From a virus, in the IMG/VR virus record IMGVR_UViG_3300034198_009452, positions 1 through 50,219 of that record: 50,219 nucleotides of DNA; one strand, given 5' to 3'. A program made the position numbers and the translations under genes. Each line of letters opens with the position of its first letter. Positions within the stretch are counted from its first letter, which is position 1. Under the pieces are notes generated by a model. It worked only from the letters and a program-made list of their open reading frames with translations. It was not told the origin of the DNA and ran no database searches. This document shows positions 34,304-46,394 of the stretch, one piece after another.

Positions 34304-34327
34304 GGTTCCCTTGCGGTGTACTCCAGA

Positions 34328-34365: not shown

Positions 34366-34372
34366 GTAGGGG

Positions 34373-34537: not shown

Positions 34538-34562
34538 GGGGTGGGGTGCGGTTTGCTTTGGA

Positions 34563-34597
34563 ATTCTACAGGGTCGGGGGCAGGAGGTCAACCCTCC
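34563..34597 (-). promoter_or_regulatory. Degenerate hairpin-promoter for gene at 34537
   Basis: -35 TTGACC, spacer 17, -10 TAGAAT (34568-34563). The hairpin is reduced to a 5-bp stem (GGAGG / CCTCC). The TGA stop of the upstream gene lies inside the -35 hexamer. Confidence 0.6.
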
Positions 34598-34767
34598 AGG
34601 GGCACCACGTCGTCGGCGTAGCGTTCGGCGTAACGTGCTGCCCACCAGTACCCTTCGGCAGGGTTGATCTGTCCAGCGAAGCGGGACTGAGGAGCATCGT
34701 CAGTCTTACGGGCAACCCACATGGTTTCGCGGGTCTGAAGGTCGGAGCACTGTGAGAAGATCGCCAT
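34588..34767 (-). CDS. GC-rich island hypothetical protein
   Basis: 59 residues: MAIFSQCSDLQTRETMWVAR, KTDDAPQSRFAGQINPAEGY, then WWAARYAERYADDVVPLEG. Its TGA stop is shared with the -35 box of the next promoter. A run of 13 C (coding strand) lies immediately before ATG. A promoter is unclear: -10-like TACAGT (34802-34797) has no good -35, so read-through from the exported-protein gene upstream is possible. Confidence 0.55.
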   Translation of the reverse strand: MAIFSQCSDLQTRETMWVARKTDDAPQSRFAGQINPAEGYWWAARYAERYADDVVPLEG

Positions 34768-34780
34768 GGGGGGGGGGGGG
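34768..34780 (-). repeat. C13 homopolymer abutting a start codon
   Basis: Thirteen consecutive C on the coding strand lie directly upstream of the ATG at 34767. Such tracts are prone to slippage, so the length of this leader may vary between genomes or be a sequencing or assembly artefact. Confidence 0.7.
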
Positions 34781-34807
34781 TGTCGGTTGCTTGGGTACTG
34801 TAGCAGG

Positions 34808-34963
34808 TCAGCGGCGCTCACCACACCAGGCAGGGTCGGCGCTGCACATAGCGTCTGCCATGCGCTCCTGGTGATCGTTGACCGTTGCCTGGGCGGAGTT
34901 GTGAACAGCAGTGCCGATGATCAGGGTCAGAGCGGCGAAGGCGGCAGGCAGAATGCGGATCAT
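34808..34963 (-). CDS. Small exported protein with signal peptide
   Basis: 51 residues. A classical signal peptide is visible: MIRILPAAFAALTLIIGTAV, then HNSAQA with probable cleavage after AQA (residue 26). The mature part is only about 25 residues, with two Cys (MCSADPAWCGERR) that could form a disulphide in the periplasm. The start follows the same GACACCCC-type leader as the gene at 34767. An export role fits a small envelope or superinfection factor, but function is unknown. Confidence 0.6.
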   Translation of the reverse strand: MIRILPAAFAALTLIIGTAVHNSAQATVNDHQERMADAMCSADPAWCGERR

Positions 34964-35000
34964 GGGGATGGGGTGTCGGTTGCTTGGGTACTGTAGCAGG

Positions 35001-35186
35001 TCAGAAGTGAACTGCCCAGTTCGGATCGGTCAGGCAGTTCACCCAGGCGCACCAGGTGCCGTTGCTGCTCACGCAAAACAGGTCGTTGCCCTGGCGCTGC
35101 TCAACCACAACCACGGGGTCGCCTGCCATCTGGTTTGCCAGGCGGTTCTTCGCCTTGGCAGAGATGGGGGTCAGGGTCACGGTCAT
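35001..35186 (-). CDS. GC-rich island conserved small protein
   Basis: 61 residues: MTVTLTPISAKAKNRLANQM, AGDPVVVVEQRQGNDLFCVS, then SNGTWCAWVNCLTDPNWAVHF. A short basic helix precedes a beta-meander containing three Cys and three Trp. I recognise the NRLAN...VVVEQ style from cyanobacterial and cyanophage hypotheticals, without function. It has a strong cassette promoter. Confidence 0.65.
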   Translation of the reverse strand: MTVTLTPISAKAKNRLANQMAGDPVVVVEQRQGNDLFCVSSNGTWCAWVNCLTDPNWAVHF

Positions 35187-35208
35187 CGGATCGGTTGCGG
35201 TTGAGAGA

Positions 35209-35246
35209 ACTATAGTCTATGGGTGGGGAGGGGGTCAACCCTCCCC
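35209..35246 (-). promoter_or_regulatory. Hairpin-promoter cassette for gene at 35186
   Basis: Perfect stem GGGGAGGG / CCCTCCCC (35225-35246) with loop TTGACC as -35. Spacer 18; -10 TATAGT (35214-35209). The leader ends CAACCGCAACCGATCCG before ATG. Confidence 0.75.
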
Positions 35247-35261
35247 GTAGGGTTCAATGCC

Positions 35262-35480
35262 TCAAGCGGCACTGAGAGTTTGCTCTACCCACTCATCAAA
35301 CTGAGTGATGAGAATCGCACACACTTTCGGGTACGCTTTTTGAAATTCGGATTTGATACCCATCTCAAGGGCAATCTTGCGCGCTTCGGTGTATTCCATA
35401 CGACCAAGCTGTGCCAGGGTGGGATACTCTCCACGGGCGATCATCGCTTCGATTTCGGCGTTGGTGAGGATGGTGGTCAT
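35262..35480 (-). CDS. GC-rich island hypothetical protein
   Basis: 72 residues: MTTILTNAEIEAMIARGEYP, TLAQLGRMEYTEARKIALEM, GIKSEFQKAYPKVCAILITQ, ending FDEWVEQTLSAA. Predicted all-helical. The frame is also open upstream to an ATG 2 bases after the -10, adding 15 residues, but that start lies too close to the promoter to be transcribed. Function unknown. Confidence 0.65.
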   Translation of the reverse strand: MTTILTNAEIEAMIARGEYPTLAQLGRMEYTEARKIALEMGIKSEFQKAYPKVCAILITQFDEWVEQTLSAA

Positions 35481-35526
35481 GGTGCTGGTGGGATTGTGGG
35501 GGGTCCGTTTGCCCCCCGATGACATC

Positions 35527-35562
35527 AGTATAGCAGGTCGGGGGCAGGCGTCAACCTGCCCC
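35527..35562 (-). promoter_or_regulatory. Hairpin-promoter cassette for gene at 35480
   Basis: Perfect stem GGGGCAGG / CCTGCCCC (35541-35562), loop TTGACG as -35, spacer 16, -10 TATACT (35532-35527). The leader that follows can fold a second G6/C6 hairpin and is duplicated before the gene at 36680. Confidence 0.8.
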
Positions 35563-35569
35563 GTGAGGA

Positions 35570-35836
35570 TCAGATCCTCTCCAGATCACCGTGCTGCAGA
35601 GCACGGTGGAGCAGGCGACCCCAGGAGGTTGCCTCCCGTGCCTCAGGATCCTGCAGGAGGTCAGTCCAGCGAACAGCAGCGCCGTGATCCTCAAAGGCGA
35701 AGCGGTATTCGGTGCTGCTGCTGGTGTAGGTCACCAGCAGGTCGAAGGTGCCCTGCAGGGCACCTGGCACGATCGCCAGGTGGGAGATGGCGCTGCTGTT
35801 CACTGAGGCGGCGGCGATGGCGGTTGCGGTGGTCAT
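35570..35836 (-). CDS. Small protein, possibly KTSC-like
   Basis: 88 residues. After an Ala/Ser-rich start (MTTATAIAAASVNSSAISHL), the sequence TFDLLVTYTSSSTEYRFAFE and a later WGRLLHRALQHGDLERI loosely follow the strand-strand-helix layout of KTSC domains. The match is weaker than that of the gene at 38298. It has its own cassette promoter. Function unknown. Confidence 0.6.
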   Translation of the reverse strand: MTTATAIAAASVNSSAISHLAIVPGALQGTFDLLVTYTSSSTEYRFAFEDHGAAVRWTDLLQDPEAREATSWGRLLHRALQHGDLERI

Positions 35837-35860
35837 CGGATCGGTTGCGGTTGCTTGCTA

Positions 35861-35897
35861 ATGGTAGTCGGTAAAGGGGCAGGCGTCAACCTGCCCC
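35861..35897 (-). promoter_or_regulatory. Hairpin-promoter cassette for gene at 35836
   Basis: Perfect stem GGGGCAGG / CCTGCCCC (35876-35897) with loop TTGACG as -35, spacer 17, -10 TACCAT (35866-35861). Confidence 0.7.
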
Positions 35898-35904
35898 GTA
35901 GGGT

Positions 35905-36117
35905 TCAGGGTGTGGGATCGTATCCGTCGATGATCTCATTAACCGCAGCAGTCGGGGTCATACCCTCTAGGAAGCGATCCAGCAGAGCGTCCAGCGCCCA
36001 TCCGTGGTCAGCGGATCCCATGATCCGCTCAACGTAGTCATCCTCACAGATCATGCCGTAGGCAGCATCCCAGAAGGTGCAAAAGTCTTGGGAGTCGAAG
36101 CAGTTGTCGGTGGTCAT
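35905..36117 (-). CDS. GC-rich island acidic protein
   Basis: 70 residues, strongly acidic: MTTDNCFDSQDFCTFWDAAY, GMICEDDYVERIMGSADHGW, ALDALLDRFLEGMTPTAAVN, ending EIIDGYDPTP. Small acidic phage proteins often inhibit host nucleic-acid-binding enzymes, but nothing specific supports that here. No domain recognised. Confidence 0.65.
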   Translation of the reverse strand: MTTDNCFDSQDFCTFWDAAYGMICEDDYVERIMGSADHGWALDALLDRFLEGMTPTAAVNEIIDGYDPTP

Positions 36118-36143
36118 GGTCGGTTCAGGTGTGAACTGGAATC

Positions 36144-36179
36144 AGTATAGCAGGTCGGGGGCACCCGTCAAGGTGCCCC
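36144..36179 (-). promoter_or_regulatory. Hairpin-promoter cassette for gene at 36117
   Basis: Perfect stem GGGGCACC / GGTGCCCC (36158-36179), loop TTGACG as -35, spacer 16, -10 TATACT (36149-36144). It is nearly identical to the cassette at 34068-34103. Confidence 0.8.
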
Positions 36180-36186
36180 GTAGGGT

Positions 36187-36411
36187 TCAAACGGCAACCC
36201 AGTAGGATTTGCCGTTGCGCTCCTGCTGCTCTGCCATGATAAAGGCGCCGCTGCTCTGGCAAGCCCGCCATCCTTGCACCTGGTAGTAGCAGTCCTCCAG
36301 GGTGCTGGCGTAGGCAAGGGTGCGGGCGATCTTACCTCCCTTCACGAACGCCACCGCGAACGGGTAGCGGGTGGGGGAGAGGATCGTCTGCAGGGGGGTG
36401 GGGTCGATCAT
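36187..36411 (-). CDS. GC-rich island hypothetical protein
   Basis: 74 residues: MIDPTPLQTILSPTRYPFAV, AFVKGGKIARTLAYASTLED, CYYQVQGWRACQSSGAFIMA, ending NGKSYWVAV. The order strand, helix, strand suggests a small alpha/beta fold, similar in layout to the gene at 36680 (a strand, an Asn/Thr turn, then a helix with Ala/Cys). It has a hairpin but no recognisable -35. Confidence 0.65.
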   Translation of the reverse strand: MIDPTPLQTILSPTRYPFAVAFVKGGKIARTLAYASTLEDCYYQVQGWRACQSSGAFIMAEQQERNGKSYWVAV

Positions 36412-36434
36412 CGGTTCAGGTGTGGAACTTGTTC

Positions 36435-36469
36435 AGTGTAGCAGGTCAGGGGCACCCTGGGGGTGCCCC
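36435..36469 (-). promoter_or_regulatory. Hairpin with lost -35 before gene at 36411
   Basis: The stem GGGGCACC / GGTGCCCC is intact (36449-36469), but the loop is CCCAG instead of TTGACG. The -10 is TACACT (36440-36435). Promoter strength is doubtful; the hairpin is conserved. Confidence 0.55.
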
Positions 36470-36476
36470 GTAGGGG

Positions 36477-36680
36477 TCAGGCAGCGAGGCGGTGGTTCAC
36501 AGTGTAGGACTGTTTGCTGTTCAGATCCTGCTGGAGAACCATGGCGTAGTCAAGGAAGCGGGACTCCTCCTCCATCTTACGGGCGCAGGCGATGGCAGCA
36601 TCGCGGTCGCTGAAGGTGCGGAGGGTGCTGGCGTTCTCACCGCCCTGGTTGTATCCGCCGATCACGATGTAGATGGTCAT
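36477..36680 (-). CDS. GC-rich island hypothetical protein
   Basis: 67 residues: MTIYIVIGGYNQGGENASTL, RTFSDRDAAIACARKMEEES, RFLDYAMVLQQDLNSKQSYT, ending VNHRLAA. It looks like a short beta-alpha-beta fold of the kind that handles a strand-turn-helix (IVIGGYNQGG). Its leader of about 45 bases is identical to that of the gene at 35480. Function unknown. Confidence 0.65.
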   Translation of the reverse strand: MTIYIVIGGYNQGGENASTLRTFSDRDAAIACARKMEEESRFLDYAMVLQQDLNSKQSYTVNHRLAA

Positions 36681-36726
36681 GGTGCTGGTGGGATTGTGGG
36701 GGGTCCGTTTGCCCCCCGATGACATC

Positions 36727-36796
36727 AGTATAGCAGATCAGGGGGCAAAGGGGAGGGTCGGAACCCTCCGCTGTGCCGCCTAGCGGGTCGGCACAG
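36727..36796 (-). promoter_or_regulatory. Two hairpins and -10 box before gene at 36680
   Basis: The -10 TATACT (36732-36727) lacks a clear -35. Upstream are a 6-bp stem GGAGGG / CCCTCC (36752-36769) and an 8-bp stem CTGTGCCG / CGGCACAG (36771-36796), the latter directly after the stop of the gene at 36802 and terminator-like without a T-run. Confidence 0.5.
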
Positions 36797-36801
36797 TGTG
36801 A

Positions 36802-36951
36802 TCAGAAGTCGATGGCGTCAAGTGTAGGGTCTGCGCCACATTCAGCAGATTCGTCAACACTATCCCCCAGAACAAGAGTGTCAAGAATTTGCAGGATTTG
36901 TGCGCCGTTGTCACCAGAGCGGAGGAGAGAAAGCGCAAGGTCGCGGGTCAT
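36802..36951 (-). CDS. Conserved small cyanophage/cyanobacterial protein
   Basis: 49 residues: MTRDLALSLLRSGDNGAQIL, QILDTLVLGDSVDESAECGA, ending DPTLDAIDF. The N-terminal helix pair (LSLLRSGDNGAQILQILDTL) is a pattern I recognise from many short cyanophage proteins of unknown function. The acidic tail is disordered-looking. It follows the gene at 37169 by 56 bases and has no clear promoter of its own. Confidence 0.65.
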   Translation of the reverse strand: MTRDLALSLLRSGDNGAQILQILDTLVLGDSVDESAECGADPTLDAIDF

Positions 36952-37007
36952 CGTAGAGTTTGCAATTGGGTAGAGTGGCAGTCTTTAGGGCGCTGCCGTT
37001 CCTTTGC

Positions 37008-37169
37008 TCATCGCTCTAGTTGTGCCAGAGATGAAGGAGCGATGTGGGAAGGAGATCCACAGGAGCGGTAGAACTCAACCATCCGATCTGCCTCCTCCTT
37101 GGTTGTGAACCACTGTGAGCGCCACTCACAGGAGTTGTAAGGGGTCTGATAGCGAACTTCAAAGCGCAT
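37008..37169 (-). CDS. GC-rich island small protein
   Basis: 53 residues: MRFEVRYQTPYNSCEWRSQW, FTTKEEADRMVEFYRSCGSP, ending SHIAPSSLAQLER. A strand, a Trp-rich turn and a helix with EEADRMVEFYRS suggest a small alpha/beta domain like those that begin with a parse-and-flag strand (FEVRYQTPY). The ATG follows the shared leader AACAAGTTCCACACCTGA, which supports the start. Function unknown. Confidence 0.6.
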   Translation of the reverse strand: MRFEVRYQTPYNSCEWRSQWFTTKEEADRMVEFYRSCGSPSHIAPSSLAQLER

Positions 37170-37193
37170 GGCGTTCAGGTGTGGAACTTGTTC

Positions 37194-37226
37194 AGTGTAG
37201 CACGGGAAGGGGGCAGTGGTGCCCCC
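37194..37226 (-). promoter_or_regulatory. Hairpin and -10 before gene at 37169
   Basis: Stem GGGGGCA / TGCCCCC with loop CCAC (37209-37226); -10 TACACT (37199-37194). No TTGAC -35. The standard leader follows. Confidence 0.5.
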
Positions 37227-37234
37227 CGTAGGGT

Positions 37235-37501
37235 TCAGAAGTCAAACACGTCGCCGTTGATCTCTGCACGGTTGATCTCTGGGTCGTTCCACATCACGCC
37301 ATCAGGGGTTTGAATGCTGCCGTGATCATACAGTGCCTCTAGCAGTTCTTCATAACAGCAAACGTCATTCTCCTGGATGAAGTTGTGAATGCTTTCATCA
37401 TTCTCAATCCAGAGCACTACATTCCAGGTTTTGTAGTTAGTCCATTCGTTGCAGGTAACATCGAACAGATCGGTCTGGTGAGTGCGGGTTGCGGTTGCCA
37501 T
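37235..37501 (-). CDS. Phage protein with NYKTWNV motif
   Basis: 88 residues: the central WTNYKTWNVVLWIENDESIH is a widespread phage motif (I associate it with a DUF7249-type family), followed by an acidic half with CCYEELLEALYD and ending NGDVFDF. The family has no firm function. The leader contains four tandem ACACC units (37521-37502) directly before ATG in place of the usual leader end. Fairly sure of the family, not of the role. Confidence 0.75.
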   Translation of the reverse strand: MATATRTHQTDLFDVTCNEWTNYKTWNVVLWIENDESIHNFIQENDVCCYEELLEALYDHGSIQTPDGVMWNDPEINRAEINGDVFDF

Positions 37502-37531
37502 GGTGTGGTGTGGTGTGGTGTGAACTTGTTC

Positions 37532-37565
37532 AGTATAGCATGGGAAGGGGGCAGGGTGTGCCCCC
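37532..37565 (-). promoter_or_regulatory. Hairpin and -10 before gene at 37501
   Basis: Stem GGGGGCA / TGCCCCC with loop CACCC (37547-37565), -10 TATACT (37537-37532). There is no TTGAC -35 in the loop. Confidence 0.5.
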
Positions 37566-37573
37566 CAGGGCGA

Positions 37574-37750
37574 TCAGATGGCGCTGGTGCCCTTGCTCAC
37601 CCAGAGCGCCAGGCGCATGGTGGATGCCTTGCTCACCTGCTGGGCGGTGCGCCCGTGGGCGATGGCAGCAGTCTTCAGGCACTGGCGCTTGGCATCGGCG
37701 TTGCCCACCAGGATCATGCGGGCGTTCTGGAGGAGTTGCTGCTGGGTCAT
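37574..37750 (-). CDS. GC-rich island basic helical protein
   Basis: 58 residues: MTQQQLLQNARMILVGNADA, KRQCLKTAAIAHGRTAQQVS, ending ALWVSKGTSAI. It is basic and helical; a segment near ARTAQQVSKAS-type residues 34-44 is reminiscent of a helix-turn-helix half but too short to call. It has the shared leader start (GAACAAGTTC). Confidence 0.6.
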   Translation of the reverse strand: MTQQQLLQNARMILVGNADAKRQCLKTAAIAHGRTAQQVSKASTMRLALWVSKGTSAI

Positions 37751-37776
37751 GATCGGTTCGGGTGTTGAACTTGTTC

Positions 37777-37811
37777 AGTGTAGCACGGGGGTGGGGGTGC
37801 CCAGCACCCCC
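37777..37811 (-). promoter_or_regulatory. Hairpin and -10 before gene at 37750
   Basis: Stem GGGGGTGC / GCACCCCC with loop TGG (37793-37811); -10 TACACT (37782-37777). No -35 found. Confidence 0.5.
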
Positions 37812-37818
37812 AGGGAGA

Positions 37819-37992
37819 TCAGGCGGTGATCTCCATCCACTTCTGCTCGTCGCGGTAGATCACCACGGGAGCGCCGCCGAGTTCGATGCTCCAGTCGAAG
37901 GCAACGTCCACAGCGTGCTCCTCGCTGGTGAAGAACTCCGCGTGGTCGATGCCAGTGCCCTTGGGGGCGGCGCTCCAGGAGATGAAGGTCAT
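37819..37992 (-). CDS. GC-rich island small protein
   Basis: 57 residues: MTFISWSAAPKGTGIDHAEF, FTSEEHAVDVAFDWSIELGG, ending VIYRDEQKWMEITA. A strand, an acidic helix and two strands form a plausible small alpha/beta unit, with WMEIT at the end like genes that end on a strand. The -10 TATACT (38023-38018) and shared leader precede it; no clean hairpin loop or -35. Confidence 0.6.
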   Translation of the reverse strand: MTFISWSAAPKGTGIDHAEFFTSEEHAVDVAFDWSIELGGAPVVIYRDEQKWMEITA

Positions 37993-38073
37993 GTCGGTTC
38001 AGGTGTGGAACTTGTTCAGTATACAGGCGCCCTGGCGGGGGAAAGGGGGCAGCATGTGCCACCCCCAGGATCG

Positions 38074-38298
38074 TCACACGGTGGCAGGCACCTGGGTGAG
38101 TTGATCGCCACGGATTGCCAGGTTGATAAACTTACCCACGGAGTCCTCGTTTTCGATCACCAGGTTGAGATCGGCAACGAACTCTGCAGGATCGGTCACG
38201 TTGTAGGTATAGTCACGCCCACCATTGAAGGTAACAGTCACTTGACCGTTCTGCACTTCGCTGATGTTTTCGATGGCGCTGGATTGGAACTTGAACAT
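38074..38298 (-). CDS. KTSC-domain-like protein
   Basis: 74 residues: MFKFQSSAIENISEVQNGQV, TVTFNGGRDYTYNVTDPAEF, VADLNLVIENEDSVGKFINL, ending AIRGDQLTQVPATV. SSAI near the start, the GRDYTYNV strand and the SVGKFINLAIR helix fit the KTSC domain, a small fold named for its conserved KTSC residues and found in phages and in lysyl-tRNA synthetase fusions. Its biochemical role is not settled. It has its own promoter and a 60-base leader rich in A/T near ATG. Confidence 0.7.
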   Translation of the reverse strand: MFKFQSSAIENISEVQNGQVTVTFNGGRDYTYNVTDPAEFVADLNLVIENEDSVGKFINLAIRGDQLTQVPATV

Positions 38299-38366
38299 GA
38301 TGTTAAAAAAGTAAAGGGTTGAGTGAAGTGTTTTGAGCGGGATGCTTCACCCCCGCTGATGTGATC

Positions 38367-38395
38367 AGTATGGCACGGATTGGGGGTGGGGTCAA
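38367..38395 (-). promoter_or_regulatory. Promoter for KTSC-like gene
   Basis: -35 TTGACC (38395-38390), spacer 17, -10 CATACT (38372-38367). The TTGA of the -35 is also the tetraloop of a GGGG/CCCC hairpin, a reduced version of the island cassette. Confidence 0.65.
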
Positions 38396-38421
38396 CCCCC
38401 GGTGTGCCAGTTGTCAGATCG

Positions 38422-38595
38422 TCACCCCTCTAGCAGTTCGGGGTAGTATTCTTTCACTTCTTCGGTCAATTCTTCATCAGAATACTTTGCGTAACCTTCT
38501 TCGAGGTAGTCATAACAGAGTAGGGTCATAGTCTTGAGGTCCATGTCATCCAGCATCTGCTGAATGAGAGCATCTTGCAGTTCAGAACGGTTCAT
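38422..38595 (-). CDS. Small acidic operon protein
   Basis: 57 residues: MNRSELQDALIQQMLDDMDL, KTMTLLCYDYLEEGYAKYSD, ending EELTEEVKEYYPELLEG. All-helical and acidic. Its ATG overlaps the preceding stop (TGATG), and it is the last gene of a four-gene coupled operon. The SELQDALIQQMLDDMDLKTM start is a style common in cyanophage small genes. Function unknown. Confidence 0.65.
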   Translation of the reverse strand: MNRSELQDALIQQMLDDMDLKTMTLLCYDYLEEGYAKYSDEELTEEVKEYYPELLEG

Positions 38596-38741
38596 CAGAT
38601 CTCATCCCTCATTTTGGTAAGTTTGTCATACAGAAGCGGAATGTCCGCCTCTGTAAGTTCAGTCAGGTAGCACCAATCGCTACTGTCAAGAATTGCCATC
38701 AGGGCATCCAGTTCCTGATAGTTGAGGTGTGTGAGTGTCAC
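38595..38741 (-). CDS. Small operon protein (GTG start)
   Basis: 48 residues from GTG: TLTHLNYQELDALMAILDSS after the start, then DWCYLTELTEADIPLLYDKL, ending TKMRDEI. A start at an ATG 36 bases upstream would overlap the previous gene by 40 bases; GTG gives the 4-base GTGA overlap typical of this operon, so I prefer it. Helical. Function unknown. Confidence 0.6.
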   Translation of the reverse strand: MTLTHLNYQELDALMAILDSSDWCYLTELTEADIPLLYDKLTKMRDEI

Positions 38742-38866
38742 TTGCGTAGTGGAGAATTGAAGTAACGAGTGAAGCATAGCACCAGGATGATGCCAGTGGA
38801 GAGGACACCAACCAGTCCGAGAACTGTCACAGTGTCGCCAGTGAAAGTGTAGGTATCAGGTGTCAT
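38738..38866 (-). CDS. Small single-pass membrane protein
   Basis: 42 residues: MTPDTYTFTGDTVTVLGLVG then VLSTGIILVLCFTRYFNSPL. Residues 13-32 are a clear transmembrane segment; the short C-terminal end is basic. The ATG overlaps the upstream stop (TGATG). It could be a holin-like or accessory membrane peptide but has no diagnostic feature. Confidence 0.6.
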   Translation of the reverse strand: MTPDTYTFTGDTVTVLGLVGVLSTGIILVLCFTRYFNSPLRK

Positions 38867-39015
38867 CAGAAAGTGTAGTTACTGTTGAGCATTTGGATGA
38901 AGTTCGCGTCAATTTCACCATCCTCGATGAACTTGCTGCGATCAAAATCTTCGGGGATAATGTCAAAGATCTCTTCATCAGCAGAGTCTTCGATCTCAAA
39001 GAAGTAGGTGTCCAT
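38866..39015 (-). CDS. Small acidic operon protein
   Basis: 49 residues: MDTYFFEIEDSADEEIFDII, PEDFDRSKFIEDGEIDANFI, ending QMLNSNYTF. Very acidic, no Lys-rich region. It is the first gene of the four-gene coupled operon (39015-38422). An upstream hairpin (stem GGGCACC / GGTGCCC, loop GTGA, 39055-39072) is a cassette relic without a proper -35. Function unknown. Confidence 0.65.
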   Translation of the reverse strand: MDTYFFEIEDSADEEIFDIIPEDFDRSKFIEDGEIDANFIQMLNSNYTF

Positions 39016-39086
39016 GGGTGTGTTTCAGGAACAAACGTAGTTTGGCATGGGTGAGGGCACCTCACGGTGCCCGATGTGCCACTTGC

Positions 39087-39419
39087 TCAACTGTCCAGGG
39101 CACCCTGCTCGTTGAGCACACCCCAGGCGATGCCGTTGCTATACAAACCGATGTAACGGTTGCCAACACTCAACCCAACGATTTCATCGCCAGGTTCACC
39201 GATCATGTTCACACCGAAGTAGAAGTATTCGGTGAACATTTCAGGAGTTTGGAACTTCATGGTCTGAATCTTCTCCCAGAGAATAGTAGCAACCACATAG
39301 GCGATTGCGGCAGCAGTGAGAACAAAACTCCGCACATCTTGGTAGAGTTTTTGATAGTCAACCTCCTGCAGAACTTCGATCAGAGCGTCAGCAGGGGGGA
39401 AAGATTTGGTGAGGTTCAT
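39087..39419 (-). CDS. Small protein with one transmembrane segment
   Basis: 110 residues from the ATG at 39419; the longer open frame upstream crosses the promoter. Layout: helical N-terminus (MNLTKSFPPADALIEVLQEV), a hydrophobic segment VLTAAAIAYVVATILWE near 33-49 as a transmembrane helix, then a soluble C-terminal domain (FQTPEMFTEYFYFGVN, GLSVGNRYIGLYSNGIAWGV). A membrane-anchored small protein; function unknown. Confidence 0.65.
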   Translation of the reverse strand: MNLTKSFPPADALIEVLQEVDYQKLYQDVRSFVLTAAAIAYVVATILWEKIQTMKFQTPEMFTEYFYFGVNMIGEPGDEIVGLSVGNRYIGLYSNGIAWGVLNEQGALDS

Positions 39420-39465
39420 GTCAAGAATGGGTGGGGGAATGTAGAGGTGTCCCAACCACGAGATC

Positions 39466-39494
39466 AGTATGGCACACCAGGGGCACCAGGGCAA
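39466..39494 (-). promoter_or_regulatory. Promoter for gene at 39419
   Basis: -35 TTGCCC (39494-39489), spacer 17, -10 CATACT (39471-39466). Just after the -10 the minus strand reads ATCTCGT (39464-39458), the heptamer clustered at 40 and 42 kb, here in the opposite orientation. Confidence 0.55.
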
Positions 39495-39563
39495 GGGGTT
39501 GCAACATTCCGTAACATCAGGGCATCTTATCAGTGCCATCAGGTACTCTAATGTGCCAGGGGC

Positions 39564-39592
39564 TTGACACATCTTGTAATCTTGACTAGAAT
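39564..39592 (+). promoter_or_regulatory. Plus-strand consensus promoter with no gene
   Basis: TTGACA (39564-39569), 17-base spacer, TAGAAT (39587-39592). It points into 39.6-39.9 kb, where no plus-strand open frame of useful length exists. It would produce a non-coding RNA. Confidence 0.6.
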
Positions 39593-39614
39593 ACCTTTGT
39601 TAGGTTTGAAGATG

Positions 39615-39636
39615 ATAATATAAAGCTTTATATTAT
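39615..39636. repeat. Perfect 22-base AT palindrome
   Basis: The arms ATAATATAAAG and CTTTATATTAT are exact reverse complements with no loop. It could be a regulator site, a cruciform or an RNA hairpin. Confidence 0.8.
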
Positions 39637-39751
39637 ACTTTAAAGAGATGCGTTAGCATACCCCGAAGGGGTATGAGTTAATGTCATATAAGCACGTTAG
39701 ATGGTGTGGGAAGGGGTGAGTGGGGTGAAGCACTAATTCTTGCACATAAAG

Positions 39752-39780
39752 AAAAAAGGCAGGGTCACCACTCCCTGCCT
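39752..39780 (-). terminator. Intrinsic terminator after tRNA-Leu
   Basis: On the minus strand an 8-bp stem AGGCAGGG / CCCTGCCT is followed directly by TTTTTT. It lies 106 bases after the tRNA 3' end and is the best classical intrinsic terminator in this region. Confidence 0.75.
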
Positions 39781-39886
39781 CATTATCACCTTGTTCCTAT
39801 CTTCTTTGATATAATCACCACGTACCTATGTGTATGATATAACCACTCTCGCGTGTATGGGTGGTGATTGTCTCAAACCACCCAAG

Positions 39887-39971
39887 TAGGAGTAGGGAGA
39901 CTTGAACTCCCACGAGCGTAATGCCCAACAGATTTTAAGTCTGGTGTGTCTACCGATTCCACCATACTCCC
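39887..39971 (-). tRNA. tRNA-Leu(UAA)
   Basis: 85 bases. The acceptor stem GGGAGTA pairs with TACTCCT (closing G-U pair), discriminator A. The D-arm region contains TGGAATCGGTAGACAC, the anticodon loop CTTAAAA gives anticodon UAA, a long variable arm (GGGCATTACGCTC) marks a class II tRNA, and the T arm is GGGAG / CTCCC with TTCAAGT. CCA is not encoded. It reads UUA codons, common in the AT-rich late genes and rare in GC-rich hosts. It has its own promoter and terminator. Confidence 0.93.
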
Positions 39972-39980
39972 ATGTTGTAT

Positions 39981-40009
39981 AGTATACGCTATCTCGTGAT
40001 GTTTGTCAA
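39981..40009 (-). promoter_or_regulatory. Consensus promoter of tRNA-Leu
   Basis: TTGACA (40009-40004), spacer 17, TATACT (39986-39981), ending 9 bases before the tRNA. A near-perfect sigma70 promoter. The spacer contains one copy of the ATCTCGT heptamer (complement reading ACGAGAT). Confidence 0.8.
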
Positions 40010-40013
40010 GTGA

Positions 40014-40042
40014 TTGACATTCTCGTAATGATAGTGTATACT
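40014..40042 (+). promoter_or_regulatory. Plus-strand consensus promoter divergent from tRNA
   Basis: TTGACA (40014-40019), spacer 17, TATACT (40037-40042), with only 4 bases between its -35 and that of the tRNA promoter. It points toward the ArdA-like gene end and would yield RNA antisense to that gene. The spacer starts TTCTCGT, a variant of the heptamer. Confidence 0.65.
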
Positions 40043-40120
40043 GTGATGTATACATGATCTCGTAGAGATGTGTATAAGATACGTGTGCATCTCGTACACA
40101 TCTCGCACGCGATCTCGTGC
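40043..40120. other. Heptamer-rich leader/antisense segment
   Basis: Holds three exact ATCTCGT copies (40057, 40089, 40112) plus a near copy. Short hairpins such as ATCTC / GAGAT and GCACG / CGTGC use these motifs. The last hairpin sits directly after the stop of the gene at 40121. Confidence 0.55.
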
Positions 40121-40588
40121 TTACCAGGCGTTCACGAACACATAACCGTCCACGAACTCGTAGTCATAACGCAGTCCCTGATCCCAGGTTGCCTGCCAGT
40201 CAATCACCACGAACGAAGGAACATTCAGTCCATAGCAGTCAGATGTAGTCTGCTCTGCAAAGTCTGCCTCCGATTCATAATGTCCTTGATAGGCATCTGT
40301 GAACCCGTGAAGATCACTTTCCTCCCAGATTTCCAGGAAGGCATCTACGGCATCTTCACCGTATTTTGCACACAGTTCGTCATAGAGTTCCTGATACTCA
40401 TCAGAAATCTCCGTGGGTTCAGGTTTGTTCAGCAAACCCTTGGCATCCAGCAGTTCAGTATAAAATTGAGTGAAATGCAGTTTGCCTTCCACCTCATAAC
40501 CACATGCCCGAAGAATTTCAGTCATAGTGTACAGGGATTGTGCCTGCATGGTGGTCACTTTGGTCAGCAGTTCGGTGCCTTTGAGCAT
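40121..40588 (-). CDS. cyAbrB-like domain fused to ArdA-like antirestriction domain
   Basis: 155 residues from ATG at 40588; the longer frame crosses the promoter. Residues 1-52 (GTELLTKVTTMQAQSLYTMT, then EILRACGYEVEGKLHFTQFY and TELLDAKG) match the cyanobacterial cyAbrB pattern (L-L-x-K-V ... R-A-C-G-Y ... F-Y-x-x-L-L-x-A-K-G). Residues about 60-155 resemble the C-terminal part of ArdA: an acidic helical stretch, AYQGHYESEADFAEQ (99-113), a VIDWQATWDQGL segment and final VDGYVFVNAW. ArdA proteins mimic DNA and block type I restriction enzymes. The fusion could bring a host-like regulator domain to an anti-defence function. Both assignments are by eye. Confidence 0.65.
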   Translation of the reverse strand: MLKGTELLTKVTTMQAQSLYTMTEILRACGYEVEGKLHFTQFYTELLDAKGLLNKPEPTEISDEYQELYDELCAKYGEDAVDAFLEIWEESDLHGFTDAYQGHYESEADFAEQTTSDCYGLNVPSFVVIDWQATWDQGLRYDYEFVDGYVFVNAW

Positions 40589-40613
40589 GGGGTGATCCCT
40601 CAAGAACAAATGT

Positions 40614-40648
40614 AATGTAGCAGGGTTTGGGGGGCATGTCAACCCCCC
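40614..40648 (-). promoter_or_regulatory. Hairpin-promoter cassette for ArdA-like gene
   Basis: Stem GGGGGG / CCCCCC (40629-40648) with loop TTGACATG holding the -35 TTGACA, spacer 17, -10 TACATT (40619-40614). The leader ACATTTGTTC is shared with the gene at 40934. Confidence 0.75.
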
Positions 40649-40667
40649 TGGTCCAGTTAGTTGAGTG

Positions 40668-40934
40668 TCACAGCAGCACCAGTTTGGGTGCCTTCTCCAC
40701 CTTAAAGGTAAACAAAGGTCCGCACACGATGGACATACCCTCCGTGCCAAACTCTTCGACCACTTCCCAGGTCTCATGCTCAGATTTGATGATCACAGCA
40801 CCCTCCATCTCTGGGTCTTTCTTGTGGGCATTAAACATACTCACAGCATACCCAATAGTGCTGGCAAAGGATTTCTCATTAAAGAAACCATCCTTGCTCT
40901 GACCAAAACCAATCACACGGTAAACGGTTTGCAT
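40668..40934 (-). CDS. Hypothetical protein
   Basis: 88 residues from ATG at 40934: MQTVYRVIGFGQSKDGFFNE, KSFASTIGYAVSMFNAHKKD, PEMEGAVIIKSEHETWEVVE, EFGTEGMSIVCGPLFTFKVE, ending KAPKLVLL. A mixed alpha/beta protein, probably one domain. Start chosen by promoter and leader. Neighbour of the antirestriction candidate, so an anti-defence or host-takeover role is possible but unsupported. Confidence 0.65.
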   Translation of the reverse strand: MQTVYRVIGFGQSKDGFFNEKSFASTIGYAVSMFNAHKKDPEMEGAVIIKSEHETWEVVEEFGTEGMSIVCGPLFTFKVEKAPKLVLL

Positions 40935-40956
40935 GAGGTGTCTCAGGAACAAATGT

Positions 40957-40985
40957 AATGTAGCAGGGCACCTGGGATTAATCAA
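40957..40985 (-). promoter_or_regulatory. Promoter for gene at 40934
   Basis: -35 TTGATT (40985-40980), spacer 17, -10 TACATT (40962-40957). The -35 lies in the loop of a longer hairpin (arms GGGCAC / GTGCCC). Leader ACATTTGTTCCTGA. Confidence 0.65.
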
Positions 40986-41003
40986 GTGCCCTTGTGCCAG
41001 TTC

Positions 41004-41414
41004 TCAAACTGCCAGTGCCAGGGCAGGAATCTCTACCAGTTCTGGCGATTTGTCATTCTCAAACTGGTGCATATTGTAGCACACCCATTCACCTTCCAGA
41101 GTATAAAGGTAGGCAAATTCCTCATTATCAGAGAGATACTCTTCCAGTGAAGCATCAAGACATGGGGGGCAGTTTTCACCCCGGTAGGAATAGTAATTAG
41201 CACCGTATTCTTTGTTGAGTTTAGTATCCCAACGATCAGTAGTCCAGCAAGATGACATGTCGCCACCGTCAATCAGTTCTGCAGCAAGTTCTTTGCTGTT
41301 ATAATGGGTGCGAAGAATACGACCCAACCATTCGGGATAACCATCAGAGTGATGATACGCCGAAAGAATAGACTCATCAGAGAGTTGAATACCAATGCGT
41401 GAGCGAGTTGACAT
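41004..41414 (-). CDS. Phage-conserved STRSRIGI-type protein
   Basis: 136 residues: MSTRSRIGIQLSDESILSAY, HHSDGYPEWLGRILRTHYNS, KELAAELIDGGDMSSCWTTD, and a C-terminal half with YSYRGENCPPCLDASLEEYL and CYNMHQFEND. The start STRSRIGIxL ... SxYxHxDGYPEWLG is a widely shared phage family that I recognise, without an established function. The length and the HxxxxGYP core are intact. Single-gene unit with its own promoter. Confidence 0.75.
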   Translation of the reverse strand: MSTRSRIGIQLSDESILSAYHHSDGYPEWLGRILRTHYNSKELAAELIDGGDMSSCWTTDRWDTKLNKEYGANYYSYRGENCPPCLDASLEEYLSDNEEFAYLYTLEGEWVCYNMHQFENDKSPELVEIPALALAV

Positions 41415-41443
41415 TTGGTGGCGGTGTGGTGTTGAACGAATGT

Positions 41444-41472
41444 AATTTAACCCCCCTGCACCAGAAGCACAA
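41444..41472 (-). promoter_or_regulatory. Promoter for gene at 41414
   Basis: -35 TTGTGC (41472-41467), spacer 17, -10 TAAATT (41449-41444), inside a CCCCC / GGGGG hairpin as in the island cassettes. The leader continues with ACATTCGTTCAACACCACAC. Confidence 0.5.
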
Positions 41473-41489
41473 GGGGGTGTGTGCCAGTT

Positions 41490-41693
41490 TCACACTTGGC
41501 ACATGGCACTCAAACGGTTGCGGATATCAAACAACTCCATTTCATCCATATCTGCAGAATCAAGATCTACAGGAGCAAACTCTTCAAGATTAATATTTCC
41601 GTTCTTATAAATGGGTGCAAAGTACAACTCATCGCCATCTTCCTGGGAAAGAGTATATACACAACCGTGATCAGCAACAGTGAGGAAAATCAT
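41490..41693 (-). CDS. Small acidic protein
   Basis: 67 residues: MIFLTVADHGCVYTLSQEDG, DELYFAPIYKNGNINLEEFA, PVDLDSADMDEMELFDIRNR, ending LSAMCQV. Beta-strands then an acidic helix; reminiscent of small phage proteins with a DELYFAPI strand that I have seen in cyanophages. Promoter candidates TTGAAG-N16-TATGTT (41745-41718). Function unknown. Confidence 0.65.
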   Translation of the reverse strand: MIFLTVADHGCVYTLSQEDGDELYFAPIYKNGNINLEEFAPVDLDSADMDEMELFDIRNRLSAMCQV

Positions 41694-41880
41694 GGGGCGT
41701 TTGTGTTGAACAGAACCAACATAAACCCGCTTCGTGGTGCTTCAAGGCAACACTAGACCAGTTCACAAGGTGGCACAAGATCTCACCAATTGGCATGGTG
41801 CTGTGGTATCTTATAGGGACAATCGGATGAGGGGAAGGGTATCCCTGTGGACGACAATACATCGCCACTCCCCCTGCCAT
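41671..41880 (-). CDS. Doubtful small Cys-rich ORF
   Basis: 69 residues from ATG at 41880: MAGGVAMYCRPQGYPSPHPI at the start, a Cys/His-rich end (HEAGLCWFCSTQTPHDFPHCC). It overlaps the promoter and the first 23 bases of the gene at 41693, which is unusual for this region. The YCRPQGYPSPHPIV stretch looks protein-like, so it is listed, but a spurious frame is about as likely. Confidence 0.3.
   Translation of the reverse strand: MAGGVAMYCRPQGYPSPHPIVPIRYHSTMPIGEILCHLVNWSSVALKHHEAGLCWFCSTQTPHDFPHCC
41718..41745 (-). promoter_or_regulatory. Probable promoter for gene at 41693
   Basis: -35 TTGAAG (41745-41740), spacer 16, -10 TATGTT (41723-41718), 25 bases before ATG. No hairpin. Confidence 0.45.
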
Positions 41881-41901
41881 GAAATATTCATATAACACTA
41901 A

Positions 41902-41929
41902 CGTTATAGCATAGTATCATACTATAACG
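41902..41929. repeat. Interrupted palindrome
   Basis: Arms CGTTATAG (41902-41909) and CTATAACG (41922-41929) flank 12 bases that include ATAGTAT and TACTAT-like halves. It lies between the genes ending at 41959 and beginning at 41880 and could be an operator or a weak terminator. Confidence 0.6.
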
Positions 41930-41958
41930 CTTGTGCCACTTATAAGACTGTCACATAA

Positions 41959-42108
41959 TCAGAATGGATCTAGATCTTTGATGCTAGCATGAACTTCTTC
42001 ATCACCCTGCAGATCTAGCATTTCTCTCCAATTGAGATCTTCTAGATCTAGATCATCATAACACTCAACGTATAGAGTGACACTTACCTTGCGTTTCTGT
42101 GCGATCAT
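41959..42108 (-). CDS. Conserved small acidic cyanophage protein
   Basis: 49 residues: MIAQKRKVSVTLYVECYDDL, DLEDLNWREMLDLQGDEEVH, ending ASIKDLDPF. The pattern KVSVTLYVECYDDLDLEDL...W..ML.L.GDE.V.ASIKD is one I recognise from short cyanophage genes. The sequence repeats GATCTAGATC-type words in its codons. It has a good promoter (TTGCAT-N17-TAGAAT). Function unknown. Confidence 0.65.
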   Translation of the reverse strand: MIAQKRKVSVTLYVECYDDLDLEDLNWREMLDLQGDEEVHASIKDLDPF

Positions 42109-42132
42109 GTGTATCTCGTGCGGTGTGTGGGT

Positions 42133-42161
42133 ATTCTATCATGCATAATGGCGATATGCAA
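42133..42161 (-). promoter_or_regulatory. Promoter for gene at 42108
   Basis: -35 TTGCAT (42161-42156), spacer 17, -10 TAGAAT (42138-42133). The leader crosses one ATCTCGT heptamer (42113). Confidence 0.6.
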
Positions 42162-42300
42162 GACTCTCGTAGTCTTGCCCATCTCGTGCATAATCGTCGT
42201 CCTCGTGCAGATCTCGTGTATGATGCTCGTAGTACGAGTCTTCATCTAGATTACAATCGTTTGCCATGGAATCAAAGTCGATCTCGTAATCGTCGTACAT
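42139..42300 (-). CDS. Very acidic small protein
   Basis: 53 residues: MYDDYEIDFDSMANDCNLDE, DSYYEHHTRDLHEDDDYARD, ending GQDYESLAYRHYA. It has about 16 Asp/Glu and many Tyr/His. Many of its codons (TAC GAG, CAC GAG, CGA GAT) come from ACGAG words, so it may be shaped by the heptamer cluster it lies in. The ATG at 42300 fits a promoter TTGCGC-N17-TACAAT. A DNA-mimic role is imaginable but unsupported. Confidence 0.55.
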   Translation of the reverse strand: MYDDYEIDFDSMANDCNLDEDSYYEHHTRDLHEDDDYARDGQDYESLAYRHYA

Positions 42301-42329
42301 AACTCGTAGTGGTTTGTGAACGTGTTTGT

Positions 42330-42358
42330 ATTGTAGCATGATCTCGTAGAGAGCGCAA
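42330..42358 (-). promoter_or_regulatory. Promoter for gene at 42300
   Basis: -35 TTGCGC (42358-42353), spacer 17, -10 TACAAT (42335-42330). The spacer contains ACGAGAT (complement of the heptamer at 42341), the same arrangement as in the tRNA promoter. Confidence 0.6.
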
Positions 42359-42810
42359 GCCCGTTGTGCCCACCCAGATCTCGTACAAGATAATGATACT
42401 GTTATATATGCATATAATGCTCGTAATGTTAATAAATGCTGATATGATAAGATCTCGTGCAGATCTCGTGGTCTTATAAGGATGTCTGATCTCGTGGGCG
42501 ATCTCGTGCGGATCTCGTAACCTGGGCAGGGGTGGGACTTGACAAACTGCGCGTCTTATGCTATGCTCGCCAACCTCACAAGACCCAGACACATTTATAA
42601 GGTATTAGAGGCATTTACAAGCATTTGCAAGCATTTAAGTCCATTTACACAACCATTTACACCCATTATAAGACTATTTCACCATATAATACTATCATTA
42701 TATCACACAATAACAAATTTTTCCCATTATTCGCATTCTCACACATCACAAAACATTACAACATTAAGAATAGATAATATACACTATACAAAAAGATCAA
42801 TATACACTAT
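42340..42810. other. Non-coding segment before homing endonuclease
   Basis: No convincing gene. The left part carries the heptamer cluster, the centre a plus-strand promoter, and 42586-42670 about six degenerate CATTTACAAG-like units, followed by an AT-rich leader to the ATG at 42811. Confidence 0.6.
42539..42567 (+). promoter_or_regulatory. Plus-strand promoter for GIY-YIG gene
   Basis: TTGACA (42539-42544), spacer 17, TATGCT (42562-42567). It is the only promoter facing the plus-strand gene and lies about 245 bases upstream of its ATG, implying a long AT-rich leader. Confidence 0.6.
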
Positions 42811-43557
42811 ATGTCAAGAGGCATAATCTACCTAATCACCAATAAAGAAAATGGTCTACGTTATGTGGGAAGCACTCTACAACCCATGAACAAAGAATGG
42901 CAATCTCACATACAATCTGCCAATAAAATGTCCTCTGAACCACTACACAGAGCATTTCGTCAATATGGTATACATCGTTTTGGTATACAAGAACTGGATG
43001 AATGTGATGAAAAAGAATTAGATGAAAGAAGAGAACACTGGATACGTCACTATAACACATATGATGGAGAGAACTATAACTTTAGATCATTTGAAGAAGA
43101 GGAAGATAATGAAGATGATATCGTCCCTATCATAAAAGAGAATACTATTCAACCTCATCAAATAAAACACTTAAGATCATTTACAGATGAAGATCGTAAA
43201 AAGATCAATCGCAATGGACATAAGGTACAAGGTATATGCATTGAAACAGGTGAAATTAAAACATGGAATTCTGCGGCAAAAGCAGCAGAAGAAGTAACTG
43301 GTAACATAAGAAAGAATTCAAATATAATAATCTGTGCCCGTAACTGTTATAACTGTTATGGATATAAATGGTCACTAATAGAAGAAAAGAATAAACTACG
43401 TCCCATTATTGGTATCAATAAAAAAACGGGGAGAATAGGTCCCCGTTATGATAGCGTTCGTCAAGGTATGATAGAACTTGGTGGTATGAGTTTATTAAAG
43501 AGTTTAAAAAACCCTGGGCGTTATAGTTATAGAGGTTTCTATTGGTATTATATCTAA
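42811..43557 (+). CDS. GIY-YIG homing endonuclease
   Basis: 248 residues. The N-terminal catalytic module has GIIYLITNKENGLRYVGSTL (residues 4-23), the GIY...YVG pair, followed by a conserved Arg/Glu helical region (QELDECDEKELDERREHW, about 70-87) that supplies the active-site Glu. The C-terminal half has two NUMOD-like DNA-binding repeats: VQGICIETGEIKTWNSAAKA near 145-165 and IIGINKKTGRIGPRYDSV near 203-220. It is the only plus-strand gene, opposite to all neighbours, and its end overlaps the neighbouring convergent gene by 4 bases. Free-standing homing endonucleases of this type spread into T4-like genomes. Confidence 0.88.
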   Translation: MSRGIIYLITNKENGLRYVGSTLQPMNKEWQSHIQSANKMSSEPLHRAFRQYGIHRFGIQELDECDEKELDERREHWIRHYNTYDGENYNFRSFEEEEDNEDDIVPIIKENTIQPHQIKHLRSFTDEDRKKINRNGHKVQGICIETGEIKTWNSAAKAAEEVTGNIRKNSNIIICARNCYNCYGYKWSLIEEKNKLRPIIGINKKTGRIGPRYDSVRQGMIELGGMSLLKSLKNPGRYSYRGFYWYYI

Positions 43558-44276: not shown

Positions 44277-44284
44277 TATTTATT
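44277..44284 (-). promoter_or_regulatory. Late-promoter-like box before Cys-cluster pair
   Basis: The minus strand reads AATAAATA, one mismatch from TATAAATA, 28 bases upstream of the ATG at 44249. This is the same spacing as at gp25. It overlaps the stop codon of the glycine-rich fibre gene. Confidence 0.45.
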
Positions 44285-46394
44285 AAGTTGCATTGGCAAG
44301 CAAAGTAATGTACTTATGAGCAAGAATTTCTCCCTGAACATCATCGAGTCTAACTGATACAAGCACCTCAATATTATCTTCTATAAGAGTATCTACAAGA
44401 GAAACAACATTAAATGTTCCAGAATTTGAGTTAATCTCAACTGCACCTGCTAGAGAACTATCAGTTGCTGGATTATATTCAAAATCTGCCTCTTTAACAG
44501 CAAATCCCGATAAAGTCCAATAAAGAATTGTTCCATTTGAGATATTTTGTGTTGTAACAGTAAAGGTCATTACTGAACCTTCTGTTAATGTTGCTCCTGG
44601 AGATGTAAGAGTTGCCGCAGGAACTTGAGGTTTTACGAATGCTGTTAGTGGTGCCGATGACACATCACTTGTTCCCCCCTGATAGGCACCAAGAACTATA
44701 CCACGAGGTAGTGAAGATGTTCCTGGTTCAACAATAACATGATATTGTCCACTTTGACCAAAAATTGCTGCTCCTCCTCTTCCTGCTGTTCCCTGTGGAG
44801 TATTAGCTCCATCTTGACCATAATCTCCTCCCACACCACCAGATTCTCCTGGATTTCCATCTTGTCCATTTTGACCAGCTTGTCCATCTTGACCTTTTTG
44901 TCCATCTCCTCCCCTTCCTCCCGATTGTCCTTGAGCTCCTTGTTGACCAGTAGATCCTGCTTCACCAGATGAGGCAGAATTTTTTGTCTCCCAACCTTTT
45001 GGGCATCTTTCTGATCCTTGTACACTTTCTCCATATTGACCAAATTGTCCCCATTGACCCCATGTTCCATCAGATCCTTGTTGTCCATCAGATCCAGCTT
45101 GAGCAGCACCACCAAGTGTGGCAGTTCCACCTTTTACTCCAAGTTGAGCAGCATTATTAGTATTTAAAAATCCTTTTCCTCTTCCACCAACACCACCTCT
45201 TCCACCAGATCCACCTCTTCCACCAAATCCACCTCTTCCACCTCTTCCACCATCTCCTCCTTTTCCACCAGCTCCGCCTGCACCACCAGCTCCGCCTGCA
45301 CCACCAGCTCCGCCTCCTCCACCAGAGATTTGAACTTCCTGCCATTTATAACAATACCTATATCTTTCGGAATTGCCACCATTCCAACCACATGATTTAT
45401 AAGGTCCATCTGGTCCTCTTTGCCATCCATTTGGACAATCGGGGAGACTGGGAACACCACATGGTCCAAAGATAAATTCTTCATCAACAATACCTTTACA
45501 TTTACCACCGTCACCAGCATCTCCAGTTGTTCCAGTAGCACCAGCAGCACCAGTAGCACCACCAGCACCACCAGCACCGCCTGCACCACCATCACCACCA
45601 TCACCAGCATCTCCACCTTTTCCGGCATTTCCAATTCCTGATATATATCCAGTTCCACCAACTCCAGAAGTACCAGAAAGTCCAGCATCACCTCCAGCAC
45701 CACCAGGACCTCCAGAAGATCCTCCATCACCACTAGGTCCTTGATTACCATCGGCGCCAGCATCACCATCAGCGCCAGCATCACCATCGGCACCGGCGTT
45801 TCCAGATGCTCCAGATGCTCCTCCTCCACCACCTCCTCTTATTTTTCCATTGGGTTTAACTAAAAATCGAATTTTATGATTTGCATTCAATTCTACAGCT
45901 TTTCCACCATCTTCTCCATCTGTTGAGTCTAAAGTTCCACCATTACCAAATGAACCATCAATTGTTCCAAACACTTCAATATTAACATTTCTTGCATCAC
46001 CACTCCAAACAAGAGAAGATGATGCTGGTTCATCGGATCCTAATGTTCCAGTTACTTTAAGTGTTTTTTTAATATTTCTATCTAAATTTGCTCCCCAACC
46101 GTCCGTACTATCACCATAAAGATTTTTATCAGTTCCAGCTTGTCTTAAAATGATCTCTTTAATAGTGTCTCTAAAATTTGATAAATTTAAAGAGTTTCCA
46201 GAGTCAACTGCAGGTATATTTTCATTAACATCAGCATCTGGAACAATTGGATCAGTTACTCCAGGATTAGTTTCTCTAAAAAGTTCACTTGATTTTACTT
46301 CACCTACATCTTGATTTTTAAAGTTTTTGCGTAAATCACTAAATTTTATCGGTCCAGAATTAAATAAAGTTTTCGTATCTTTTGAAATACTCAT
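44283..46394 (-). CDS. Glycine-rich tail fibre/adhesin-like protein
   Basis: 703 residues. Residues 1-180 are an N-terminal attachment part (GPIKFSDLRKNF, SLNLSNFRDTIKEII) and a small beta domain. Three Gly-rich blocks follow: about 187-299 (GADGDAG repeats), 358-408 (GGAGGAGG, GGRGG) and 439-547. Between the first two is a seven-Cys segment (299-348). The C-terminal 110 residues (TEGSVMTFTVTTQN) look Ig- or calx-beta-like. Gly-rich arrays of this type can fold as polyglycine-II sandwiches, as in the S16 gp38 tail adhesin. The repetitive DNA also creates long shadow frames on this strand. Probably a host-recognition or fibre-tip protein. Confidence 0.75.
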   Translation of the reverse strand: MSISKDTKTLFNSGPIKFSDLRKNFKNQDVGEVKSSELFRETNPGVTDPIVPDADVNENIPAVDSGNSLNLSNFRDTIKEIILRQAGTDKNLYGDSTDGWGANLDRNIKKTLKVTGTLGSDEPASSSLVWSGDARNVNIEVFGTIDGSFGNGGTLDSTDGEDGGKAVELNANHKIRFLVKPNGKIRGGGGGGASGASGNAGADGDAGADGDAGADGNQGPSGDGGSSGGPGGAGGDAGLSGTSGVGGTGYISGIGNAGKGGDAGDGGDGGAGGAGGAGGATGAAGATGTTGDAGDGGKCKGIVDEEFIFGPCGVPSLPDCPNGWQRGPDGPYKSCGWNGGNSERYRYCYKWQEVQISGGGGGAGGAGGAGGAGGAGGKGGDGGRGGRGGFGGRGGSGGRGGVGGRGKGFLNTNNAAQLGVKGGTATLGGAAQAGSDGQQGSDGTWGQWGQFGQYGESVQGSERCPKGWETKNSASSGEAGSTGQQGAQGQSGGRGGDGQKGQDGQAGQNGQDGNPGESGGVGGDYGQDGANTPQGTAGRGGAAIFGQSGQYHVIVEPGTSSLPRGIVLGAYQGGTSDVSSAPLTAFVKPQVPAATLTSPGATLTEGSVMTFTVTTQNISNGTILYWTLSGFAVKEADFEYNPATDSSLAGAVEINSNSGTFNVVSLVDTLIEDNIEVLVSVRLDDVQGEILAHKYITLLANAT

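Follow-up and report, generated by a model that had tools for sequence, protein, structure and literature searches.

A gene on the minus strand of a 50,219-base viral contig raises the question of why a phage would join a piece of cyAbrB, the chromosome-organising regulator of its cyanobacterial host, to a piece of ArdA, an inhibitor of bacterial restriction enzymes that mimics DNA. An earlier note, written from the sequence alone, had placed this gene at 40121-40588 of the contig (the whole of which is called the window below) and read its product as a cyAbrB-like domain fused to an ArdA-like domain. The coordinates are correct, the minus strand can now be added to them, and all of the motifs that had been quoted (RACGY, FYTELLDAKG, AYQGHYESEADFAEQ, VIDWQATW and YVFVNAW) were found. 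The central claim, that a cyAbrB-derived domain and an ArdA-type domain are combined in a single phage protein, also stands, the fusion being a recurrent one with purifying selection on both halves. No published description of a cyAbrB/ArdA fusion was found in the literature searched.

The gene and its genomic setting

The gene encodes 155 amino acids, from an ATG at 40588 to a stop codon at 40121-40123; its homologues begin at the same methionine, and dN/dS across its relatives is about 0.18. A plus-strand orf that overlaps it in antisense (40070-40615) was taken to be a shadow of the constrained minus-strand gene. Nine nucleotides before the ATG is a GAGG Shine-Dalgarno-like site (40598-40601, minus strand), preceded by a Sigma70-like promoter, TTGACA-17-TACATT with TG ahead of the -10 box (40614-40642, minus strand), which suggests early expression by the host polymerase and has a similar counterpart upstream of many related genes, both fused and unfused. 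The -35 hexamer lies in the loop of a GGGGGG/CCCCCC inverted repeat (40629-40648, no strand).

The window belongs to a T4-like cyanophage, as its baseplate wedge protein gp6 (28482-30362) shares 56% identity with the gp6 of Synechococcus phage S-SRM01. Positions 33300-41500 form a GC-rich island (0.45-0.62, versus about 0.30 in the structural genes) with many small minus-strand orfs, often preceded by a composite element consisting of a G-rich inverted repeat with TTGACR in the loop, 16-18 nucleotides, and a TATAAT-like box frequently preceded by TG; 31 promoter-like sites were observed where shuffles of 33000-43000 predict 9.7. Just downstream of the fusion gene is a tRNA-Leu gene with the anticodon TAA (39886-39971, minus strand), similar to tRNA-Leu genes of many cyanophages, and at the edge of the island is a gene with GIY-YIG/HNH homing endonuclease matches (42811-43557, plus strand). 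Elsewhere in the window are a collagen-like glycine-rich protein of 703 amino acids with 9-nucleotide periodic repeats (44283-46394) and a match to S-adenosylmethionine decarboxylase (speD, 31116-31457), a gene known from cyanophages.

A cyAbrB N-terminal domain without the AbrB fold

The cyAbrB pattern previously noticed in residues 1-52 (40433-40588, minus strand) was confirmed with a profile built solely from host proteins, namely 25 cyanobacterial cyAbrB proteins out of 80 loci fetched. This profile gave the window protein 27.9 bits, whereas no shuffle out of 5,000 scored above 10.2 and the next orf of the window reached 5.2; the alignment is confined to profile positions 1-54 and residues 1-54 of the protein. 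The DNA-binding domain of cyAbrB is C-terminal (PMC4284466). Correspondingly, an AlphaFold model of a host cyAbrB, of moderate quality (mean pLDDT 72.5), has a helix-helix-hairpin-helix domain at residues 3-50, disorder at 56-69, and a fold matching AbrB, SpoVT and MazE at 72-111. The window protein is predicted to have equal elements in residues 1-52, and in the two models the region that holds the AbrB fold in host cyAbrB holds an ArdA fold in the window protein. The swapped hairpin of AbrB, which the earlier note had led one to expect, is therefore absent, since only the N-terminal domain of cyAbrB is matched, but the relationship to cyAbrB holds; an AbrB DNA-binding fold was ruled out by the extent of the profile match, the model and the structural matches together.

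No Pfam family matched the N-terminal half. PF14250 ('AbrB-like') had no match in the window or the related records searched, except for one weak place below the cut-off in S-SZBM1, and this near-total lack of matches makes it unusable for detecting the cyAbrB N-domain. A search for a solved structure of the N-domain found none.

The C-terminal part of ArdA

The AlphaFold model of the window protein, calculated from 41 sequences, has a mean pLDDT of 90 and consists of two domains with a weak linker at about residues 50-60. The flexible linker (residues 53-62; 40403-40432, minus strand) coincides with the block of lowest confidence (mean pLDDT 64 for residues 51-60). Beyond it, residues 63-155 (40124-40402, minus strand) are related to ArdA by several kinds of evidence. 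Pfam family PF07275 (ArdA) aligns its positions 65-154 with residues 63-150 (E 2.1e-5) at 25.6 bits, just below the curated cut-off of 27, and matches 13 of 16 family members (best E 9.7e-6); PHROG 36653, annotated as an anti-restriction protein, matches residues 64-147 with E 1.1e-13. When the model was compared with the PDB by VIA-align, the sole chain above Z 5 was ArdA 2W82 (Z 6.5), of which residues 75-165 superimpose on 71-155 of the model with an rmsd of 2.8 over 83 residues; the next-best chain had Z 3.1. A Z of 6.5 is modest by itself, but the gap to the next chain and the agreeing sequence evidence strengthen the predicted ArdA match. Structural matches in BFVD, with E down to 5.9e-7, include models of phage antirestriction proteins, while a plain Foldseek search of the PDB gave nothing below E 0.3 and a sequence-based search of solved structures gave scattered weak matches only. 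The domain is strongly acidic: residues 55-155 contain 25 D/E versus 3 K/R (net charge -22, pI 4.05), and the last 100 residues of 41 fusions have a median net charge of -23.

The earlier description of residues 60-155 as ArdA-like is correct as to homology but not as to completeness. The domains of ArdA span residues 1-61, 62-103 and 104-165, the third being the dimer interface (PMC3906837). The PF07275 match starts at position 65 of 155 and the model aligns from ArdA residue 75; by the published limits, what remains in the window protein is domain 3 with part of domain 2, while domain 1 is absent and the cyAbrB domain occupies its place.

A family of fusions in two groups of cyanophages

Of the 29 relatives found in a first scan, 19 have the cyAbrB part (L011-L029, one truncated at the end of its contig), and further scans brought the totals of distinct sequences to 41 with the fusion and 39 without it; these are counts of distinct sequences in contigs located by conserved peptide patterns and not a census. 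The fusions occur in T4-like contigs and, in a more divergent form, in four T7-like Synechococcus phages (S-CBP1, S-B28, WH11-B and DSL-LC07). In a tree of the ArdA part, based on only 103 columns and with the T7-like group on a long branch, fused and unfused sequences are deeply split and can be separated by one change, if the contig-truncated L322 is relabelled and L325, which may have lost its N-domain, is left out. Independent fusions in T4-like and T7-like phages need not be invoked since one change suffices, although a single origin is not proved. Median dN/dS values of 0.178 (N-domain) and 0.181 (ArdA part) indicate that both halves are under purifying selection. As far as such comparisons can tell, the fusion is old, has been maintained by selection and forms a family present in two cyanophage groups.

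Fused and unfused genes have common neighbours, occupy one gene island, and in many cases have the promoter element in common. They therefore seem to be alternatives for a single locus, and the unfused form, whose N-terminus is short and helical but different, presumably has the same basic task. Among 386 cyanobacterial genomes sampled, the fusion was not found; only three ArdA-like hits, all weak, were obtained (E between 8.7e-4 and 2.9e-6), and a scan of those three loci with the cyAbrB N-domain profile gave no match.

The cyAbrB N-domain is, to judge by its distribution, a mobile phage module that appears in several architectures. It was identified in 109 distinct viral proteins, mostly whole cyAbrB, with a sizeable share of ArdA fusions and a few others: it precedes an unrelated C-terminal part in contig L243, lies on the C-terminal side of proteins in contigs L216 and L205, where its partners are likewise unrelated, has another partner in S-B23 gp246, and constitutes the whole of a 52-amino-acid protein of P-TIM68. 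Whole cyAbrB is encoded by many viral contigs (within L168-L283), and cyanophages may thus carry cyAbrB regulators of their own. The earlier attribution of the N-domain to the host regulator is right about its derivation from cyAbrB, but in 37 of 38 fusions the domain is closer to viral than to host cyAbrB, so that direct capture of a host gene is not the likeliest source.

The conserved cysteine

The N-domain contains a cysteine, Cys29 (codon 40502-40504, minus strand), in the motif RxCGY. It is invariant in 26 related fusions and present in 34 of 38 fusions overall, the four podoviral ones having alanine instead. Most of the cyanobacterial cyAbrB sequences that were read have a single cysteine at residues 31-37, which in several is exactly residue 34; through these homologues, whose lone RxCGY cysteine is residue 34, Cys29 appears to correspond to C34 of AbrB2. 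In AbrB2, C34 is the only conserved cysteine, and its glutathionylation has an effect on both oligomerisation and DNA binding (PMC4264147; PMC13421787). Because the cysteine is kept in the fusions and its modification in AbrB2 affects oligomerisation, the phage domain could be a redox-sensitive assembly module, as the parallel suggests.

Probable function

Most likely, with a probability of about 0.48, the protein is an anti-restriction DNA mimic in which the cyAbrB domain serves as an assembly or docking module. The promoter implies that it would probably be made early in cyanophage infection. If it behaves as its family does, the acidic C-terminal part of ArdA would mimic DNA and occupy the DNA-binding core of type I restriction-modification enzymes of the host. 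The cyAbrB N-domain, having replaced ArdA domain 1, would act not as an AbrB DNA-binding fold but as a protein-protein module, either for self-assembly or for docking on cyAbrB of the host or phage.

Besides the ArdA homology and the charge, the anti-restriction role is favoured by analogy with sArdC, the C-terminal third of ArdA, which blocks EcoKI and EcoR124II alone (PMC12548430), and by the type I genes of likely hosts: of the 61 genomes in the family of G005, a freshwater Synechococcus, 17 have HsdR, and a genome of S. lacustris (G009) has it twice. The module role would fit the occurrence of the N-domain alone, N-terminally or C-terminally in other proteins, and the glutathionylation of the AbrB2 cysteine (PMC4264147). 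On the other side, point mutants locate antirestriction activity in ArdA domains 1-2 (PMC3906837), the first of which this protein lacks; the Pfam score falls slightly short of its cut-off; 44 of the 61 family genomes are without HsdR, and an encounter of this phage group with a type I enzyme is not established; and direct biochemistry is lacking for cyAbrB2 oligomerisation according to PMC11368403. Restriction need not be the target either, because both sArdC and ArdA of R64 bind the transcription repressor AllR and open its promoter (PMC13300388). The suggestions originally made for the cyAbrB half, that it might contribute dimerisation, nucleoid location or titration of the host regulator, are plausible from published precedents.

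The main rival, although unlikely, is that the protein is a counter-silencer, the N-domain of which hetero-oligomerises with host cyAbrB, a binder of AT-rich foreign DNA, and brings the DNA mimic to the DNA-binding domain of cyAbrB, stripping it off phage DNA. The protein would then be a two-point analogue of T4 Arn, a DNA mimic directed against H-NS, and T7 gp5.5, which binds the oligomerisation domain of H-NS (PMC8501957). Several observations fit: cyAbrB2 resembles H-NS as a protein of AT-rich DNA (PMC11368403), GC content is 30% in the first 32 kb of the window but has a median of 62% at the picocyanobacterial cyAbrB loci fetched, and AllR is an example of a repressor that C-terminal ArdA binds. 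Furthermore, a lone N-domain is encoded about 3.3 kb (P-TIM68) and 5.5 kb (contig L420) downstream of an unfused ArdA gene on the same strand, a weak hint of linked function. However, the ArdA locus is also retained by phages that lack the fusion, the N-domain is closer to phage cyAbrB than to the host protein that it would have to engage, and silencing of phage DNA by cyAbrB is not established.

It is doubtful that the N-domain instead binds nucleic acid in the manner of a small winged-helix domain and so anchors the ArdA mimic on DNA of the phage or host, a role suggested for ArdC-N alongside ArdA in polyvalent proteins (PMC5512222). Residues 3-57, like residues 1-54 of host cyAbrB, weakly match winged-helix proteins, and Pfam HTH_48 matches 2 of 16 members (best E 0.01), but Z is at most 3.1, within reach of common arrangements, the predicted helix-helix-hairpin-helix order is not canonical, and basic residues are not in excess (net charge -1 over the first 54 residues, host median 0); the resemblance is too weak for a winged-helix assignment. 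Slightly more doubtful still is the idea that chance recombination put a purely structural cap without a partner in the place of ArdA domain 1, leaving a plain short ArdA; this would suit the different N-terminus of the unfused relatives and the apparent loss in L325 but not a domain as strongly constrained as the ArdA half and conserved across T4-like and T7-like phages, with the cysteine and GY..FY..L core in most members.

The fusion couples a DNA mimic with part of a cyanobacterial nucleoid protein, cyAbrB, and shows the little-studied cyAbrB N-domain to be a mobile module that phages employ in several architectures. The gene offers a handle on two questions, the role of the cyAbrB N-domain and whether cyanophages counter silencing by cyAbrB. 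A rather long shot is a two-point antagonist of the host nucleoid regulator, in which a copy of the cyAbrB assembly domain, possibly redox-gated by its cysteine, carries a DNA mimic by which phage DNA is cleared of cyAbrB; if this is true, the protein would be a counter-silencer for cyanobacteria, where no description of one was found, and may also protect against restriction.

Comparison with known systems

By its described role, T4 Arn (PMC8501957) is a phage DNA mimic that sets a precedent for mimics acting on a nucleoid protein, but no nucleoid-protein domain has been described in Arn. Polyvalent proteins with ArdC-N and ArdA (PMC5512222) likewise fuse ArdA to a domain that might position it, but the partner is ArdC-N and they are found mainly in elements of Firmicutes. 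The cyAbrB proteins themselves (cyAbrB1 and cyAbrB2, Sll0359 and Sll0822) share the N-terminal domain with its RxCGY cysteine, whereas their C-terminal AbrB DNA-binding fold is missing from the window protein, which has ArdA instead. ArdA of Tn916 (ORF18, PDB 2W82; PF07275) resembles residues 63-155 in predicted fold, strong acidity and, at a score just under the curated cut-off, profile, but the window protein has the cyAbrB N-domain in lieu of domain 1 and the start of domain 2. Like sArdC (PMC12548430), the window protein is an ArdA cut down to its C-terminal part; sArdC, however, is a stand-alone bacterial protein, while the window protein is borne by a phage and carries the N-domain of cyAbrB.
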